From contig NZ_JAENIM010000023.1 of NCBI RefSeq assembly GCF_016595495.1, forward strand, positions 1-64,000: a stretch of 64,000 bases of DNA, read 5' to 3'. The translations under genes and the position numbers were made by a program. This DNA comes from Persicirhabdus sediminis. Lineage in GTDB: Bacteria > Verrucomicrobiota > Verrucomicrobiia > Verrucomicrobiales > Akkermansiaceae. The notes beneath the pieces were generated by a model that was given only the letters and a program-made list of their open reading frames with translations, had not been told where the DNA came from and did not search any database. Shown one piece after another: positions 8,102 through 28,927 of the stretch; position 1 is the stretch's first letter; each line of letters begins with the position of its first letter.

Positions 8102-10042
8102 CTATTCATCGCCCAGATGAGCATTCGCCACAAATGGTGGCATTGCGCAGCCCATGGCATCAGCCACCGCACGCAGCATCTCAGCCTCACGGCTGTGAAT
8201 TTCGCCGTCAAACATCACCGCCGACGCACACATCTGAATCAACTGCCTCTTCACCAGTGGCGACGCCAAATCAAACTTCTGCACCGCGGCATCAATCGAC
8301 TGTAGACCACAGTCAGCTGGCTCCATCAGCTTCATTTGGGACCAACCTTGCGTGGCGCTGGCAAAAACTTCAGCAATCTCACCTTCCGCGCTCATCGACG
8401 AAATCGTCGTCACAATGATAGACGCTTCGACCATCAGATCTTCAATGCGTCGGTATTTGATCTTCTGGTGACCACGTGGGTTGAAATGTGATTGCAAATG
8501 GCGCTCGACTACTTTCTGCAGCATGAACTCAAACAAATCTACCTGCCCGTCGCTAGAAATTAACCAACGGCTAACATCGAGAAAACGTGTATACTCGCCA
8601 GGTGATAGATTGCGCAGACTAGGAATACACAAATCTATCAAAGCTATCTTCTTTGACGAATGCAAACCGAGTAGTTTTTTGCTCCAAGATTCAGCTAGCT
8701 GAGAAGCCTCCTCCCCTAACTTCTCAGTTAGGAAGCTGAGCTCGCTTGCGTGCAACTCGGCATCTTGCGCTAACAACATGCCTAAAACCAATGCCTGAGC
8801 AGACTCACGCTGGTGACAGGCTTCAATCCAGCTAGCATCTAGCGATTTCATGATCTGCTGACCAGTCGCCAGCTGGGTAAAATCAGACTCGCCAACGTCG
8901 CGAGCTTGCGGAATTGGCGGCGGAACCGTTGGACGCGATGAAGCTACAGCTGCGCCAGCTAGACCTGCAGCCATACCAGCTGATGGCCTGCGCGCTGGCA
9001 TCTGTGAGCGACGTGGCGGCAATGAGCCAATTTTGTCTAACTCCACGTCAGAAAACTCGCCATCCCAGTCCGGCTCAACCGCACGGATGCGCACATCTAT
9101 GGGCGGATGGGTAGCCATGCCAAAACTAAATAAACCAGCATCAGAGAAAAACATGTGGCTAGCTTCACCAGCCTTAGAGGCATGCATCCTCTCACCCATA
9201 CCGCCGATTTTTTTCAATGCTCCAGCAATGCTAGCTGGCTCACGGGTAAATTGCACCGCAGATGCGTCAGCTAGATATTCACGCTGGCGAGAAATTGCCG
9301 CCTGGATCATGCGCGCAAAAACCACGCCGATAGATCCAACAATCATTAAGCCAATGCCAACAACCAATATAAGTATTCCTAGATTGCCGCTATTTTTATC
9401 ACGCGACCTAGAGCCACCAGTGAAATAAATCGCATCCATCAGAACTCGCCCTATCAGCGAAATCATCATGATGCCAAAAATCCACCCCATGATGCGCATG
9501 TTCATCTTCATGTCACCATTGAGAATGTGGCTGAACTCGTGAGCAACAACCCCCTGCAGCTCAGCGCGGTTGAGATACTGCAGACTACCACGCGACATGC
9601 AAACTACCGCATTACCTGGATCTGTACCCGCCGCAAAGGCGTTGATAGACATCTCATCATCCATCACCCAGACCTGAGGAACCGGCACGCCAGATGCGAT
9701 CGCCATTTCCTCAACGATATTTACTAAGCGTTTCTCTTCTCTATCACTTGTATTGGGATCTATCTGGCGCGCCCCCATATCGCGCGCCACCACATCACCA
9801 CCGCCACTTAGCTGTAATGATTTGAAAACACTACCACATACAATTAGCGCACAACCTATCAGCGCCGTGTTCATCAGCACATTTGGCATCCACAACGATA
9901 CATTGCTAAAACCGCCAAAGTACAAACCTAGCAAAATCACAAAATATAGAGAAATCACTATGCCCACAACGGCGAGTACAAAGTAGACAAATAACCACTT
10001 AGTGCGCCGGTGGGCGGCATCCTGTGCTTCGTAAAAATTCAT
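8102..10042 (-). CDS. M48-family zinc metalloprotease (HtpX-like) with long C-terminal extension
   Basis: Two membrane segments lie at residues about 15-43 and 53-75. They are followed by the peptidase domain with HEFSH (168-172), the downstream Glu in SRQREYLADASA, and two further hydrophobic segments between them, as in HtpX. HtpX-like proteases cleave damaged membrane proteins. The catalytic part ends near residue 330. The remaining 300 residues, with a helical TerB/DjlA-like look near the end (MFDGEIHSREAEMLRAVADA), are not part of HtpX. A LemA gene lies immediately upstream on the same strand, a widespread pairing with M48 proteases. Total length is about twice that of HtpX. Confidence 0.87.
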   Translation of the reverse strand: MNFYEAQDAAHRRTKWLFVYFVLAVVGIVISLYFVILLGLYFGGFSNVSLWMPNVLMNTALIGCALIVCGSVFKSLQLSGGGDVVARDMGARQIDPNTSDREEKRLVNIVEEMAIASGVPVPQVWVMDDEMSINAFAAGTDPGNAVVCMSRGSLQYLNRAELQGVVAHEFSHILNGDMKMNMRIMGWIFGIMMISLIGRVLMDAIYFTGGSRSRDKNSGNLGILILVVGIGLMIVGSIGVVFARMIQAAISRQREYLADASAVQFTREPASIAGALKKIGGMGERMHASKAGEASHMFFSDAGLFSFGMATHPPIDVRIRAVEPDWDGEFSDVELDKIGSLPPRRSQMPARRPSAGMAAGLAGAAVASSRPTVPPPIPQARDVGESDFTQLATGQQIMKSLDASWIEACHQRESAQALVLGMLLAQDAELHASELSFLTEKLGEEASQLAESWSKKLLGLHSSKKIALIDLCIPSLRNLSPGEYTRFLDVSRWLISSDGQVDLFEFMLQKVVERHLQSHFNPRGHQKIKYRRIEDLMVEASIIVTTISSMSAEGEIAEVFASATQGWSQMKLMEPADCGLQSIDAAVQKFDLASPLVKRQLIQMCASAVMFDGEIHSREAEMLRAVADAMGCAMPPFVANAHLGDE

Positions 10043-21112: not shown

Positions 21113-21133
21113 CCCACCTATCAGCTCAATATT

Positions 21134-21190
21134 CCAGCTAGCTGGAAATACAATCTAGCAAAAAGCCGAAGCTCATCGCTTCGGCTTTTT
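21134..21190 (+). repeat. 57-bp direct repeat, copy 1, containing the metG terminator
   Basis: It runs from CCAGCTAGCTGGAAATACAA to the first Ts of the terminator tract. It matches 24278-24334 at all but one position (T to A, turning CTGG into CAGG). A third partial match, TAGCTGGACATACAATC, lies at about 21210. The two full copies bracket the ubiquitin-like/DUF4132 gene pair. Confidence 0.92.
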
Positions 21191-21261: not shown

Positions 21262-21687
21262 ATGCCGACCGTAACTATATCAGACGAAAAATTAGGCTCA
21301 GGTTCCAGCGCTAGCTCTAAGATGACCATCTCATTCTTGGACGAATCCATGACGGTACGAGAACTCATTAAAGAGCGAATCTACCAAGAAGTCGCAGAGT
21401 ACAATCTATCAATTACTCAAGAAACTAAGCAACCAACACTTCTCATCACACCAAACAGGGATGAGCAACGCCTAAACGCAGGCTCAGATAACAGCCGCAA
21501 AAAGAAACCCAAGCCGCAGCCAGTCGATTGGCTGCAGCAATACGATACCGCCTGTGATGCCTTTGAAAGGAATGGCTTCTTTATCGTCATAGGAGAAAAG
21601 CAAGTTAGCGATCTGGATGAAGTGGTTTCTCTCACTGCTAACACAGATGTAAGCTTCGTGAAACTCACACCCTTAATTGGAGGTTAA
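21262..21687 (+). CDS. Ubiquitin-like (beta-grasp) protein ending in Gly-Gly
   Basis: The 141-residue protein reads as a split beta-grasp fold. A first strand pair and helix comprise MTISFLDESMTVRELIKERI (about 21-40). A variable, basic middle follows (SRKKKPKPQPVDW). A second half, GFFIVIGEKQVSDLDEVVSL and then VSFVKLTPLIGG, ends exactly at Gly-Gly. The strand order, the T-V-R-E-L-I helix start and the terminal L-x-P-L-x-G-G parallel ThiS, MoaD and ubiquitin-like modifiers, whose C-terminal GG is activated or conjugated. The next gene overlaps it by one base if it starts at 21687. From memory, short proteins of this shape accompany DUF4132-type genes; I cannot check it here. No E1, E2 or JAB-like gene is visible in the window. 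Confidence 0.68.
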   Translation: MPTVTISDEKLGSGSSASSKMTISFLDESMTVRELIKERIYQEVAEYNLSITQETKQPTLLITPNRDEQRLNAGSDNSRKKKPKPQPVDWLQQYDTACDAFERNGFFIVIGEKQVSDLDEVVSLTANTDVSFVKLTPLIGG

Positions 21688-21692
21688 TGATT

Positions 21693-24245
21693 ATGTGCAA
21701 AATTGAAAATCTACTAGAGCAATACCTACGGTCAGTTGAAAACATCTCACCACACGATAGTGAACGAATCACCTCACACCCAAGCTGCAAAGCTCTGCTA
21801 GATCTCCCCCCTTCCGAGCAAGTAGAATTAACATCTCTATTATGCCAGCATTATGATTCAATCAGCAAGGCTATGGAGCTTCCGGAAAGCAAGCGAGCTG
21901 CGGCTCTCGCTGACAGGGTAAATATAAAGCTAATTCTAGCCAGCCTACTACGAAGGAAATTACCCTTCACTGATAGTGTTCTACGGCAAGTCGCCACAGT
22001 TCTTGCTCAGTTAAGCAGCTGGGGATCCTGCCCTCAGGCCTACTTTGGCACTACAGTTAGTAGATACCAGAAATCTGGAAAAGAGCTTTCGCCCCGACTC
22101 ATTGACGCCTGCGCAAAGCTGATCAAACAATGGGGAAACGGCAACCCTGAGCAGAAGAAATGGGCTGCAAAACTTAGGGATCCACTAGGAGACGACTTCA
22201 AAGAGTTGCCTAAAAACCCTATCAACAAGAACGGCGAAGTATTTGCTGAAGCCCTATTAGATGACCTCGAAGAGATGAACGACACCTCACATATACAGTG
22301 GGTTACTCTCATTGATCATGCCTCAGACAGCCAACCAGGTAGCCCAACGAAAAAATGGCTGCGCACCGCTGAGAAACACATTGACGCTATAGGACAACAA
22401 TCAGTCTGTAACAACCTTATCAAATGGTTTCCACTAATCGACAAACCGTCTACAGCTGAAGACTCTGATGAAGAGACATACTATTTAGACAGCTCACTAT
22501 TATTCTGTGAACCCCACTTAGCTGTACTTAAAGGTTTAGCTTGGACGGCCGCGCTCGTAGCAAATGACGAGCTAACTAGAGTCATTGGCGAAGCTGGCAT
22601 AAGCAGCTACAAAAAGGTACCTGGCATTGGTGCCAGAGCTACTCGTGTAGGGAACGCATGTGTCTGGGCTCTTGGACACATTGGCTCAGACTGCGCTCTA
22701 GCACATCTTGCCCTAATGAAAACCAAAGTAAAATTTGGCACTGCCCAGAAAAGTATTCAAAAAGCACTCGTCAAGCTAGCAGCTCAAATCAATGTCACTA
22801 CTGACGAGTTAGAAGAAATGAGCGTTCCTGAATACGGCTTAACTGAGGTTGGTGGCTATCAAGAGCAGTTAGGAGAATACACTGCAGTTGTCACCGTCAT
22901 TGATAAAAAACCAACCTTGAGCTTCATTAACCCAAAGGGGAAAGCTATCAAGTCAGTGCCTGCAGCAGTCAGAGCTGATTATGGAGAAGAACTAAAAGAG
23001 CTCAGAGCGAGCCTTAAAGATCTTGAAAAGATGATTAGCGCACAGAGAGAGCGGCTAGATAACATCTTCCTGCTAGAAAAGTCTTGGTCGTATTCAATCT
23101 GGAGCGAAAGATATTTGAACCACCCTGTCGTAGGCATACTTGCACGACGACTGATCTGGACTTTGACATTAGACGGTAAGATGACTGAAGCAATTTGGCT
23201 AGAAGGAGGTTTAAAGGACATCAATGGAGTGGAGGTTGATATTGATATCAATAATACCACCGTCCAAATATGGCACCCTATCAACTCTGAAGCTGATGTC
23301 GTCATGGAGTGGAGACGCTTTCTATTTGAATATATGATTCAGCAACCATTCAAGCAAGCTCACCGAGAAGTTTACTTGCTCACGGATGCTGAGAAAAATA
23401 CCGAGATATACTCCAACCGCTTTGCATCACATATACTCAAACAGCACCAATTTAGTTCACTTTGCGCCATTAGAGGCTGGAAAAACAAACTACGCATGAT
23501 GGTAGACGACTGCTACCCGCCCGCCTATAAAGAACTACCTAACTATGGATTGCGTGCTGAATTCTGGATCGAAGGTATTGGCGATGACTGGCACGAAGAT
23601 TACGTCGTTGATTCAGGAGCATACCGCTATCTATCTACTGATCAGGTTCGTTTCTATAAAATCGACTCCCCCTTACTATATGCTCATGCTTGCGGAGGCT
23701 CATACGGTCAAGGTTGGGGAAATGAAACTAGTGAAGCCCCGCTAGACATAGAAGACATCCCGCCATTAGTTCTATCTGAAATCTTACGAGACGTTGACCT
23801 CTTTGTTGGTGTAACCAGCGTTGGCAATGACCCTAATTGGAGTGACGGCGGCCCAAATGGAAGTTTCCAAAATTATTGGAATGAGCAATCATTTGGTAAC
23901 TTAGGCGAAACCGCTGAGATGAGAAAAGAAATTCTCCAACATCTACTTCCGAAACTCAAAATCGCAGACCGATGTGAACTAGAAGGAAAATTCCTCAAAG
24001 TAAAAGGGTCAATACGTTCCTACAAAATTCATCTAGGTAGCGGAAATATTCTGATGACGCCAAATGACCAGTATTTGTGCATCGTCAAAGCTCCATCCAG
24101 AGTTTCTAGTAAAAATATAGTATTCTTGCCGTTTTCAGGCGACGACAAGTTATCGGTAATCTTATCCAAAGCATTTATGTTAGCTGATGATGATAAAATA
24201 AAAGACAGCACTATCCTATCACAAATCAACAGAGACTTCGTCTAG
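21693..24245 (+). CDS. DUF4132/MolR-like protein (C-terminal DUF7737-type domain)
   Basis: The ATG at 21693 is preferred to the one at 21687 because GGAGG at 21679-21683 gives a 9-base spacing to it. The 850-residue protein has an all-helical, repeat-like first half (about 1-400). A middle region follows with WSYSIWSERYLNHPVVGILA (about residue 470) and HREVYLLTDAEKNT. The C-terminal domain contains YKIHLGSGNILMTPNDQYLC, which I recognise as the end of DUF4132-type (YehI/MolR-related) proteins. Biochemical function is unknown. It is translationally linked to the ubiquitin-like gene and the pair lies between 57-bp direct repeats. Its base composition appears richer in A+T than that of the neighbouring housekeeping genes. 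Confidence 0.8.
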   Translation: MCKIENLLEQYLRSVENISPHDSERITSHPSCKALLDLPPSEQVELTSLLCQHYDSISKAMELPESKRAAALADRVNIKLILASLLRRKLPFTDSVLRQVATVLAQLSSWGSCPQAYFGTTVSRYQKSGKELSPRLIDACAKLIKQWGNGNPEQKKWAAKLRDPLGDDFKELPKNPINKNGEVFAEALLDDLEEMNDTSHIQWVTLIDHASDSQPGSPTKKWLRTAEKHIDAIGQQSVCNNLIKWFPLIDKPSTAEDSDEETYYLDSSLLFCEPHLAVLKGLAWTAALVANDELTRVIGEAGISSYKKVPGIGARATRVGNACVWALGHIGSDCALAHLALMKTKVKFGTAQKSIQKALVKLAAQINVTTDELEEMSVPEYGLTEVGGYQEQLGEYTAVVTVIDKKPTLSFINPKGKAIKSVPAAVRADYGEELKELRASLKDLEKMISAQRERLDNIFLLEKSWSYSIWSERYLNHPVVGILARRLIWTLTLDGKMTEAIWLEGGLKDINGVEVDIDINNTTVQIWHPINSEADVVMEWRRFLFEYMIQQPFKQAHREVYLLTDAEKNTEIYSNRFASHILKQHQFSSLCAIRGWKNKLRMMVDDCYPPAYKELPNYGLRAEFWIEGIGDDWHEDYVVDSGAYRYLSTDQVRFYKIDSPLLYAHACGGSYGQGWGNETSEAPLDIEDIPPLVLSEILRDVDLFVGVTSVGNDPNWSDGGPNGSFQNYWNEQSFGNLGETAEMRKEILQHLLPKLKIADRCELEGKFLKVKGSIRSYKIHLGSGNILMTPNDQYLCIVKAPSRVSSKNIVFLPFSGDDKLSVILSKAFMLADDDKIKDSTILSQINRDFV

Positions 24246-24277
24246 CTATTACACATTAACAAACTCGTACCCACCAT

Positions 24278-24334
24278 CCAGCTAGCAGGAAATACAATCT
24301 AGCAAAAAGCCGAAGCTCATCGCTTCGGCTTTTT
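24278..24334 (+). repeat. 57-bp direct repeat, copy 2, containing the terminator of the DUF4132 gene
   Basis: It is identical to 21134-21190 except for one base. It starts 33 bases after the DUF4132 stop codon and brings the same terminator hairpin. Confidence 0.92.
24304..24334 (+). terminator. Rho-independent terminator after the DUF4132 gene
   Basis: Same hairpin as after metG (AAGCCGAAGC with GCTTCGGCTT), followed by T5. The convergent VWA gene ends at 24455. Confidence 0.9.
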
Positions 24335-26270: not shown

Positions 26271-28367
26271 CTAGCTAGAAACGGCTTGGTGGCAGTATTT
26301 TTCAATCACCTTGCGAAGATTATCAACGTTGATAGGTTTCGCTAGATAGCCATTCATGCCCACTTTCAAACAGCGGTCTTCATCTTCAGGTAAGGCATTG
26401 GCTGTCATCGCTACGATGGGAATCGACTTATTGGCTTCACCAGCTTTGCCTTCGCGAATCAGGGTCGTCGCTTGTAAACCGTCCATCACAGGCATCTGGA
26501 TATCCATCAGAACTAGCTGGAACGGTGCGGAATCTGCAATCACCTTGATAGCCTCTTCACCATTGTTAGCTAGCTCAACTTCCAGCTGCTCTTTGCTAAG
26601 CAAGACCTTAGCCAAGCGAGCATTGATTTGATTATCCTCTACCAAAAGAACTCTATCACCAGCTGTGATAGCCGCGCTACTATTTGGATGTAACTTCTTC
26701 AGCTGCGCTTGGTGGCTCATCAATGCATCTATCAGGCATTTCTTAAGAATCGCCTTTTTCAAAGGTTTATAAAGCACTGTCTGATAGCCGAGACTATGCG
26801 CTAGGTCACGCTGGCCAGCTAGACGAGATGAGGAAAGTAAGACCATGCCCGCTTTTCGTTTGGTAAATCTACGTGTCACCTCACGGGCAAACTCAAAGCC
26901 ATCCATCTCGGGCATCAACATATCTACAACAAACAAATCAAATCCAGCGCGGTCTTCGTGAATGATCTGCAAGGCCTCGCGACATGAGGAAACCATCGTC
27001 ACGTCACATTCCCACTGAGTGAGCCAGGCTTGAAGCAGGAGTAGGTTTTCAATTCTATCATCAATCACTAATAGCCTCTGACCTTTCAGCACATCTGCCT
27101 GAAGATCGCTTTCTTGTTCTTTATCCTGCACGGCATAAACTGGCAGGGTGAAATGGAATGAAGATCCTTTGCCACGTGTCGACGTCGCATCGATGGTTCC
27201 GCCCATCGCCTCTACCAACTGGCGACAAATCGCCAATCCGAGGCCGGTTCCGCCATACTTACGTGTTGTCGACGCATCAGCCTGCTCAAATGGGTTGAAG
27301 ATACTGTCCTTGGTTTTTGTATCAAAGCCGATCCCTTCATCTTCGACGCTGAATTTAATAAAGTGTGGCCCGCAACTCTCAACGACAACTCGCACCATGC
27401 CTTCGTTAGTAAACTTAATGCCATTAGAAATTAGATTGAGCAAGACCTGTTGGAGCCTGGACGCATCGCCATGTAGGACATCGGGAACCTCCTCGCCAAT
27501 TGAACTCGTCAGCAAGATTCCCTTAGCTGTAGCAGCAGGCAGCTGAATATCGATGCAATGTTCGATACTTTCGACGACATCAAAATCGACAAACTCCAGT
27601 TCGACCTTACCGCTGTCTAGGCGGGAGAAATCTAAAATATCATTGATGATATGCAGCAGCATATCACCACTGCGACGAATCAAATCGAGATGTTGTTTCT
27701 GCTCTTCTGATAGTGGTGAATCCATTAGAATCTCGGTGAAACCTAGAATGCCATTCAATGGCGTACGGATCTCATGACTCATTGTCGCTAGAAAAAGTGA
27801 CTTCGCCTTGTTAGCTTTAATCGCCTCAGTGGTCGCCTTTTGCAGCTCCAGCTGAACTTCCACGCGGCCTGAAATATCGCGCACAATCCCTTGGCAAATG
27901 GTTTCCCCTGCTACCTCAAACTGAGTGGCTGAAATTTCCACGGGCAGCGGAGCGCCTTCACTGCGAACCATCACCGTTTCAAAGCGTACCAATCCAATCC
28001 GCCTAAGTTTTTCGGCGGCGTTAGCTGAAACCTCACGCTCTTCGCGCGGGTGAAGGTTCATGATATTTCCCCCTATCAGCTGCTTACGCGTCATCTTCAA
28101 CAGATCACAAATGCTGTTATTAACATCAATGATTTCGCCATCCTGGTGGTGTAAAATAATGCCATCCACAGAGGAGTGAAAGAGCGCGGTAAACTTCTGC
28201 TCTTCTATATGATAGCGTTTCGCCTCTTCTAGGATTTCCCTCTCTAGCTGTTTATTTGCCTCGTAGAGCTCGGTGCTCTTGGCTTCTAGCAGACCCTCAG
28301 CTTGCAACCTAGCGGATTTCTCCCTCAGGTAGCGCTTTTCCCACTTACTGACGTCGTCACCCGGCAT
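26271..28367 (-). CDS. Hybrid sensor histidine kinase: PAS, HisKA, HATPase, two receivers
   Basis: The 698-residue cytosolic protein begins with a coiled-coil of about 50 residues. A PAS domain follows (about 58-175, with SVDGIILHHQDGEIIDVNNS). The HisKA domain has His198 in LATMSHEIRTPLNG. The HATPase domain carries the N box LNLISNGIKFTNEG, DEGIGFD and GTGLGLAI. Two receiver domains end the protein; both keep the phospho-acceptor Asp (VVDMLMPEMDG and LMDIQMPVMDG). No HPt domain is fused. There is no membrane segment. It lies 2 bp downstream of an H-NOX gene, a classical arrangement in which the H-NOX controls the kinase in response to NO. An HPt gene at 12340 could relay the phosphate. Confidence 0.95.
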   Translation of the reverse strand: MPGDDVSKWEKRYLREKSARLQAEGLLEAKSTELYEANKQLEREILEEAKRYHIEEQKFTALFHSSVDGIILHHQDGEIIDVNNSICDLLKMTRKQLIGGNIMNLHPREEREVSANAAEKLRRIGLVRFETVMVRSEGAPLPVEISATQFEVAGETICQGIVRDISGRVEVQLELQKATTEAIKANKAKSLFLATMSHEIRTPLNGILGFTEILMDSPLSEEQKQHLDLIRRSGDMLLHIINDILDFSRLDSGKVELEFVDFDVVESIEHCIDIQLPAATAKGILLTSSIGEEVPDVLHGDASRLQQVLLNLISNGIKFTNEGMVRVVVESCGPHFIKFSVEDEGIGFDTKTKDSIFNPFEQADASTTRKYGGTGLGLAICRQLVEAMGGTIDATSTRGKGSSFHFTLPVYAVQDKEQESDLQADVLKGQRLLVIDDRIENLLLLQAWLTQWECDVTMVSSCREALQIIHEDRAGFDLFVVDMLMPEMDGFEFAREVTRRFTKRKAGMVLLSSSRLAGQRDLAHSLGYQTVLYKPLKKAILKKCLIDALMSHQAQLKKLHPNSSAAITAGDRVLLVEDNQINARLAKVLLSKEQLEVELANNGEEAIKVIADSAPFQLVLMDIQMPVMDGLQATTLIREGKAGEANKSIPIVAMTANALPEDEDRCLKVGMNGYLAKPINVDNLRKVIEKYCHQAVSS

Positions 28368-28369
28368 CG

Positions 28370-28927
28370 CTAACTCGTTTTGATGATGAACAATTCACGA
28401 CCACCTTCTAATGGCTGGCGCTCAACTTCGGCGTCAGAGTGAAACCATTTTAGGCATCCTTGAATCAAACCGTCGCAAACATCTTCTAAATGTCTGCTAG
28501 ATGAATAGATCATGTGTAAAACTTTACCACCGGGCTGGCGCTCACATTCAAATGTAGGCAGCTCAGCATCAGGATAGAGTTTTCGCACTTCGACATGGAT
28601 GTAGGTTTCTACTTTTTCGAGGAAATCTAGAGCATCTCGCGCACCATCCATGAACACAGGGTGCGCGTTCGCCAAACTGCTAAAAAGGTAGCTACCAAAT
28701 GCTGACAGGAGTTCGCCAGTAGGTACGCCAGTGATTTTAGACATAGAGACGACTAGGTCTACCATCTCTTTGTGATCGTAGGTCCCAACAGCCGTGTAGG
28801 CACCACCTGACGGCACATCCGCCTGCTCGATGATGTCGTCCACCATATCCAGACCGTGCTCGGCCTCCACCATTTTTAGAAATTCAACAAAAACAACCCC
28901 TTTCATAAGGGCATCATATTGAAACAC
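28370..28927 (-). CDS. H-NOX family heme nitric-oxide sensor
   Basis: The 185-residue cytosolic protein has the H-NOX layout: an N-terminal helical part, the proximal heme ligand His111 (YIHVEVRKLYP) and the Y-x-S-x-R heme-propionate motif at 141-145 (YSSSR). A distal-pocket Tyr, the mark of O2-binding members, cannot be assigned from sequence alone. Bacterial H-NOX proteins bind NO through ferrous heme and inhibit or activate a partner kinase encoded next door. Here that is the hybrid kinase, with a 2-bp gap. Length is normal. Confidence 0.93.
   Translation of the reverse strand: MFQYDALMKGVVFVEFLKMVEAEHGLDMVDDIIEQADVPSGGAYTAVGTYDHKEMVDLVVSMSKITGVPTGELLSAFGSYLFSSLANAHPVFMDGARDALDFLEKVETYIHVEVRKLYPDAELPTFECERQPGGKVLHMIYSSSRHLEDVCDGLIQGCLKWFHSDAEVERQPLEGGRELFIIKTS

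Follow-up and report, generated by a model that had tools for sequence, protein, structure and literature searches.

A predicted MoaD-like protein with a Gly-Gly tail and its DUF4132-DUF7737 partner: a recurrent bacterial gene pair with a covarying tail and cysteine

Organization of the Locus

The window considered here is the whole 64,000-nt stretch of Persicirhabdus sediminis DNA that was analysed. It contains a short gene whose product is predicted to adopt a MoaD-like fold, followed on the same strand by a translationally coupled gene for a much larger protein (Table 1). The small reading frame closes with a stop codon at 21685-21687, giving the C-terminus VSFVKLTPLIGG; a first-pass annotation had claimed that the protein ends exactly in LTPLIGG, and the frame bears this out. 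Among relatives of the small protein, Gly occupies residue 140 in 75 of 75 sequences and residue 141 in 74 of 75. The annotation had also placed the start of the downstream gene within a few bases of this stop codon, with its ribosome-binding site inside the last codons of the small gene, and both points hold. The ATG at 21687 overlaps the stop codon as TAATG (21685-21689) and opens an 852-residue frame; an alternative ATG at 21693, giving 850 residues, is better placed for the Shine-Dalgarno sequence GGAGG at 21679-21683.

Table 1. Features of the two-gene unit and its flanks, in window coordinates
Feature	Position	Strand	Remarks
Direct repeat, copy 1	21133..21190	+	58 nt, with terminator hairpin; upstream of the pair
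Small MoaD-like beta-grasp (ubiquitin-like) gene, fold predicted	21262..21687	+	141 aa; C-terminus LTPLIGG
GGAGGT	21679..21684	+	Gly140-Gly141 codons, here also Shine-Dalgarno of the large gene; from sequence
HEAT-like + DUF4132 + DUF7737 gene	21687..24245	+	852 aa, start within TAATG; 850 aa from 21693
DUF4132 domain	22938..23480	+	residues 418-598; Pfam
DUF7737 domain	23913..24227	+	residues 743-847; Pfam; marks partners of the small protein
Cys798 codon	24078..24080	+	motif YLCIV; among pairs, seen only with a GG tail
Direct repeat, copy 2	24277..24334	+	58 nt (57/58 identical), with terminator hairpin; downstream of the pair

No E1, E2, or JAB gene adjoins the pair in the window, as had been annotated, nor does its operon contain an activator gene, and its neighbours there are unrelated. 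Because the 58-nt repeats flank the two-gene unit exactly, with no other copy in the window, the sequence suggests that the pair arrived as a cassette downstream of metG. A second, diverged pair lies on another contig of the same genome; its small protein is 40% identical and also ends in LTPLIGG. The tree places this other copy with a Saprospiraceae sequence (SH-aLRT 99), and the two copies are therefore not a recent duplication. Elsewhere in the window, a putative haem-NOX-like sensor gene (28370-28927, minus strand), judged by eye, adjoins a putative hybrid histidine kinase gene (26271-28367, minus strand), a known type of pair.

Domains and Predicted Structures

The large protein matches the Pfam families DUF4132 (PF13569; 167.6 bits against a cut-off of 27) and DUF7737 (PF24879; 141.3 bits against a cut-off of 27). 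The DUF4132-type C-terminus proposed earlier thus stands, although DUF7737 had been missed and the likeness to MolR does not extend to the N-terminal part: no WGR domain was matched, and the N-terminus is a helical repeat, unlike that of MolR. In the predicted model (mean pLDDT 84.6), a HEAT-like N-terminal half precedes the DUF4132 and DUF7737 region. Foldseek with the full model returned helical repeats only, with no informative match for the DUF4132-DUF7737 part, and PDB sequence profiles likewise gave only designed or natural helical repeats.

The small protein has no Pfam match above the cut-off and none in PDB sequence-profile searches. Its AlphaFold2 model, built on an alignment with 47 natural relatives (mean pLDDT 82.6), places strands 3-10, 19-24, 106-110, and 129-134 around helix 32-54, in the strand and helix order of MoaD and ThiS, with a helical insert that separates helix 1 from strand 3. 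The best Foldseek matches in the PDB are two chains of human MOCS2A, the small subunit of molybdopterin synthase (probability 1.00; target TM 0.68; E-value weak at 0.02), followed by other beta-grasp domains, all E-values being 0.02 or worse. Such weak values are to be expected with the 40-residue insert. The beta-grasp fold claimed in the first-pass annotation is therefore supported by the model. NCBIfam and PADLOC matched nothing meaningful for the pair, and a defence system was rejected as its identity for lack of a PADLOC match.

Since GGAGGT encodes Gly-Gly and also serves as a Shine-Dalgarno sequence, the possibility of a ribosome-site artefact was tested by comparing codon usage over 88 relatives. 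The Gly-Gly codon pair is spelled in 16 ways, and GAGG is present in only 18 of the 88. Moreover, orphan small genes and those situated downstream of the partner gene retain the Gly-Gly, which therefore cannot be put down to translation of the partner. An origin of the tail as a Shine-Dalgarno artefact is thus ruled out.

Distribution of the Gene Pair

DUF4132 was found in 15 of 388 genomes sampled from the same phylum as the window. Confident matches to the small protein in this sample comprise seven loci in six genomes, all directly upstream of a DUF4132 gene with a DUF7737-like C-terminus; the remaining DUF4132 proteins, on inspection, lack both DUF7737 and the small gene, and several belong to MoxR/vWA-like clusters. 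A search for relatives added one further case beyond the sample (G009). In a scan of GTDB genomes, the large protein matched 80 loci assigned by record title to Planctomycetota, Actinomycetota, Bacteroidota, Cyanobacteriota, Pseudomonadota, Acidobacteriota, Myxococcota, Omnitrophota, and Verrucomicrobiota; many are metagenome bins, and isolates of Streptomyces, Micromonospora, and Pseudomonas are included. The small gene is present at 68 of these 80 DUF4132-DUF7737 loci, nearly always immediately adjacent, with gaps of -1 or -4 bases the commonest among relatives, and its tail is GG in every readable case, with no extension. Of 13 genomes then checked (those of the 12 loci without an adjacent match and one with a broken copy), 11 carry it somewhere. 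A first scan of genome contigs with the small protein alone gave no match.

Consistent pairing with DUF4132 genes elsewhere, as anticipated in the first-pass annotation, is thus borne out by the neighbourhood survey, and the pair recurs in about ten phyla. DUF4132 as the partner holds for the subset with a C-terminal DUF7737 and fails for MolR/WGR-type proteins, which have no such neighbour; DUF7737 marks the partner because DUF4132 proteins of the MolR kind, which lack it, also lack the small protein. Among 392 unselected genomes of the phylum of G460 (Planctomycetota by record title), 23 contain DUF7737 and 20 the small protein, with 19 containing the two together (Fisher p 1.8e-27, treating genomes as independent and uncorrected for shared ancestry). 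The two proteins were never seen fused; a free C-terminus is required for sulfur-carrier and conjugation functions (PMC1949818). Among the matches listed, no third gene conserved across phyla was noticed, and neighbour families are mainly common to Streptomyces loci. A phage or plasmid module was rejected as the identity of the pair, the large protein being absent from the phage records and viral contigs searched; plasmid records with the pair comprise Deinococcus, Bacteroides, Novosphingobium, and Nonomuraea replicons.

Several loci depart from the usual arrangement. At one (L069, 1689-7319), two DUF4132-DUF7737 genes in tandem follow a single small gene. In five (L178, L180, L181, L182, and L183), the small gene is an orphan that keeps its GG but has no DUF4132 gene beside it; a DUF4132-DUF7737 gene with Cys798 lies elsewhere in the genome. 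A decayed small gene in G020 (L037, about 8898-9316, minus strand) has frameshifts and stops but keeps the tail LLPFIGG; it lies beside a run of N, and no DUF4132 gene was seen nearby. On an Acetobacter plasmid, a DUF4132-DUF7737-like protein (L228, 3831-6629) carries Phe as residue 798; its gene has no small partner gene upstream and lies near a BrnT-family toxin gene. A distant small protein with the tail VAGG (L209, 1834-2424; G530) comes from a genome that lacks DUF7737 and possibly belongs to another family; its gene adjoins HPr-kinase-like and nucleotidyltransferase-like ones.

Covariation of the Tail with Cys798

A second branch of partners, about 1,650 residues long, has the architecture DUF5724-DUF4132-DUF7737. 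Its small proteins align over their full length with those of the short branch, and their tails include AGG, AGA, SG, AGSYW, AGSIW, TGTYW, AGRMW, and SGRLW. Conservation of the GG tail in homologues, implied by the first-pass annotation, is accordingly split: GG stands at the exact C-terminus in 82 of 82 pairs of the short (about 850-residue) class but in only 7 of 17 long-class pairs. A comparison of type-conserved residues in three sets, the two branches and the DUF4132 proteins that lack DUF7737, singled out Cys798 as invariant in the short branch (82/82) and variable in the long branch. The pair tally is one-to-one: 89 pairs combine GG with Cys, none combines GG with another residue or Cys with another tail, and 10 distinct pairs have neither, counting once a non-GG pair that was entered twice (L203 and L215) and leaving aside the truncated, unreadable L105. 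Of 510 columns scanned, column 798 alone divides the long branch into its GG and non-GG members.

The pattern was first spotted in eight long-branch pairs, which, having suggested it, are not an independent test. Nine pairs added later (four from Deinococcus, three from the phylum of G470, one from a Bacteroides plasmid, and the second G737 copy) are all concordant. On a tree built without column 798 and its neighbours, GG and Cys each change four times, yielding three to four independent pairs, all concordant, which are too few for significance (sign test, p 0.25). L039 and L210, both GG/Cys, are long branches of unsure placement in this tree. In three loci whose genomes yielded no small protein, residue 798 is Ser (L134), Val (L211), or Ala (L212); L213 has Cys at this position, yet no small protein was found.

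Opposite the aromatic tails (SYW, RLW, RMW), residue 798 is small (Ser, Ala, or Asn), and opposite AGA or SG it is Phe. Other positions hold steady. Both branches share residues that other DUF4132 proteins do not keep, including Lys556, Glu561, Tyr563, Arg578, Arg701, and Asp704, and, within DUF7737, Arg746, Tyr779, His782, Ser785, Asp819, Lys828, Asp835, and Gln846; Gln557, His530, Arg560, Arg596, Trp598, Glu698, and Asp702 are common to most other DUF4132 proteins. Judged by this conservation, the residues kept in both branches appear to mark a GG-independent site.

The covariation, a product of sequence comparison, is the new result. It is best explained by contact of the tail with position 798, which is well supported, and we have moderate confidence that this contact involves covalent, thioester-type chemistry. 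The covalent reading leads because Cys always stands opposite GG, and because carboxylate activation of GG tails is known for this fold. Since lineages that have lost both GG and Cys still keep the small protein, at least part of its job is tail-independent and non-covalent. Of the earlier claim that the GG tail is in use, use on the partner thus gains support, and a modifier role, with attachment to other proteins, would be inference only.

The Deinococcus radiodurans Pair

DR_A0165-DR_A0166 of D. radiodurans is a long-branch pair with the same gene order, the tail AGG, and Cys at position 798. The operon is DNA-damage induced: it is a target of DdrO, and the increase in tagged DRA0166 that follows mitomycin C depends on IrrE (PMC8533742). 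A DdrO/IrrE promoter motif with one mismatch to the consensus lies upstream of the pair (L223, 2804-2818), contrary to a report that the DR_A0165 promoter lacks the motif (PMC9650054). The same report, in which DR_A0165 is SEP068184, describes higher catalase activity in the deletion strain, binding of DR_A0165 to Trx1, and a predicted MoaD-like structure (PMC9650054). At this locus (L223, 2327-8817), trxC, encoding the thioredoxin that DR_A0165 is reported to bind, lies directly upstream of the pair, and thiS and thiG are nearby. A stress role of the pair is suggested by Deinococcus only.

Proposed Mechanism and Alternatives

Together, the small MoaD-like protein and the large HEAT-DUF4132-DUF7737 protein may form one two-part machine. 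The small protein would dock on the large one, its flexible Gly-Gly tail reaching into DUF7737 beside Cys798. Either the large protein itself or a housekeeping ThiF/MoeB-type enzyme from another locus would activate the terminal carboxylate, which would pass to Cys798 as a thioester-type intermediate; the conserved polar site of DUF4132/DUF7737 could then use this intermediate for conjugation to a target or for acyl transfer. The supports for this explanation are the fold, the strict GG, the coupling and pairing of the genes, DUF7737 as a marker, and the one-to-one GG/Cys798 covariation. Weighing against it, covariation speaks for contact rather than chemistry, and the patterns of Ser, Ala, and Asn or of Phe could reflect steric packing. 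We hold the explanation as a whole tentatively, at somewhat less than an even chance. A bolder version, in which DUF4132-DUF7737 proteins are a new, self-contained enzyme class, each binding its own Gly-Gly protein as a thioester at Cys798 and handing it on, performing ubiquitin-like conjugation without E1, E2, or E3 homologues in about ten phyla and serving the DNA-damage response in Deinococcus, is improbable.

The small protein could instead be a non-covalent subunit of structural or regulatory function, its tail a docking plug packed on residue 798, the covariation steric, and the GG never activated. Its retention in lineages with AGA, SG, AGSYW, AGRMW, and SGRLW tails, the small residues opposite Trp tails, the operon without an activator, and the persistence of most invariant polar residues of the partner with or without GG/Cys all fit such a subunit. 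However, packing should allow more variety than Cys opposite GG in 89 of 89 readable pairs, never Ala, Ser, or Thr; GG is the exact chain end in all 89, and fusions are missing from the pairs seen. We therefore consider a purely non-covalent subunit possible but doubtful. It is also conceivable, if rather unlikely, that the small protein is a sulfur carrier, whose tail would be made a thiocarboxylate by a MoeB/ThiF-type enzyme, the large protein taking the sulfur via Cys798 for thiolation as MoaE, ThiG, and CysM use MoaD, ThiS, and CysO. In known systems, the carrier gene often sits next to that of the enzyme consuming the tail, and the activator is encoded at another locus; this arrangement counts for the reading, as does the MoaD subunit of molybdopterin synthase as the closest solved fold. 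ThiF-family proteins do occur in the window's genome, though not beside the pair; their presence says little, since they were found in all 14 of 14 control genomes, and among the neighbours no sulfur-metabolism gene was seen to be conserved across phyla.

Two further roles rank far lower. As a thiol hydrolase, DUF7737 would remove or recycle the small protein from conjugates made by a ligase; an invariant Cys tied to the GG tail, in a domain with a conserved His782 and Asp residues, would suit such an enzyme, but these residues are invariant even where the Cys is lost, there is no ligase candidate, and a protein already ending in GG makes maturation unnecessary, so we regard the role as very unlikely. 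A plain MoaD of molybdenum cofactor synthesis, for which the fold and the presence of MoaE in 9 of 11 carrier genomes would speak, has a negligible probability. The small gene was never seen beside moaE, being tightly linked to DUF7737 instead, and MoaE went undetected in G156 and G469, both carriers of the pair with possibly incomplete genomes; on these grounds molybdopterin synthesis was rejected as its sole role. In Deinococcus, moreover, DdrO depletion left moeA and moeB expression unchanged (PMC8533742).

The pair supplies the large DUF4132-DUF7737 family, whose function is unassigned, with a partner and also with a candidate active residue. One Cys and one two-residue tail are predicted to act together, and culturable hosts of the pair exist (Streptomyces, D. 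radiodurans). The natural joint loss of GG and Cys provides built-in controls. If the tail is activated, the pair would constitute a widespread two-gene ubiquitin-like or sulfur-carrier system, overlooked because annotation either labels the small gene hypothetical or omits it. That tail and Cys are kept or lost together points to a widespread, so far undescribed protein-tail chemistry.

Comparison with Known Systems

The open-access literature yielded no description of the two-gene system and no mention of DUF7737 or DUF5724, although DUF4132 is mentioned; absence there is not proof of novelty. DR_A0165 was published as specific to Deinococcus (PMC9650054), with no link to DUF4132 proteins elsewhere, and DR_A0166 belongs to the long, DUF5724-type branch, unlike the large protein of the window. 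With DUF4132/MolR proteins (E. coli YehI) and their MoxR, vWA, and DUF5682-like neighbours, the pair has in common the DUF4132 domain and, in most of those proteins, His530, Gln557, Arg596, Trp598, Glu698, and Asp702, whereas MolR-type proteins lack DUF7737, the small partner, and the QPxKQxxRExY...E and YxHxGS signatures. The Bil, CBASS type II, and Prok-E2/JAB operons likewise encode a ubiquitin-like protein with a GG tail; the window pair, by contrast, is a two-gene unit without adjoining E1, E2, or JAB, and a Prok-JAB match above the cut-off occurs in only 2 of 11 genomes. The nearest likeness in fold, free C-terminal GG, and coupling to a larger partner gene is to MoaD/MOCS2A, ThiS, and CysO with their client enzymes, from which the present pair differs in the helical insert of about 40 residues after helix 1 of the small protein and in a partner that is a DUF4132-DUF7737 protein rather than MoaE, ThiG, or CysM.
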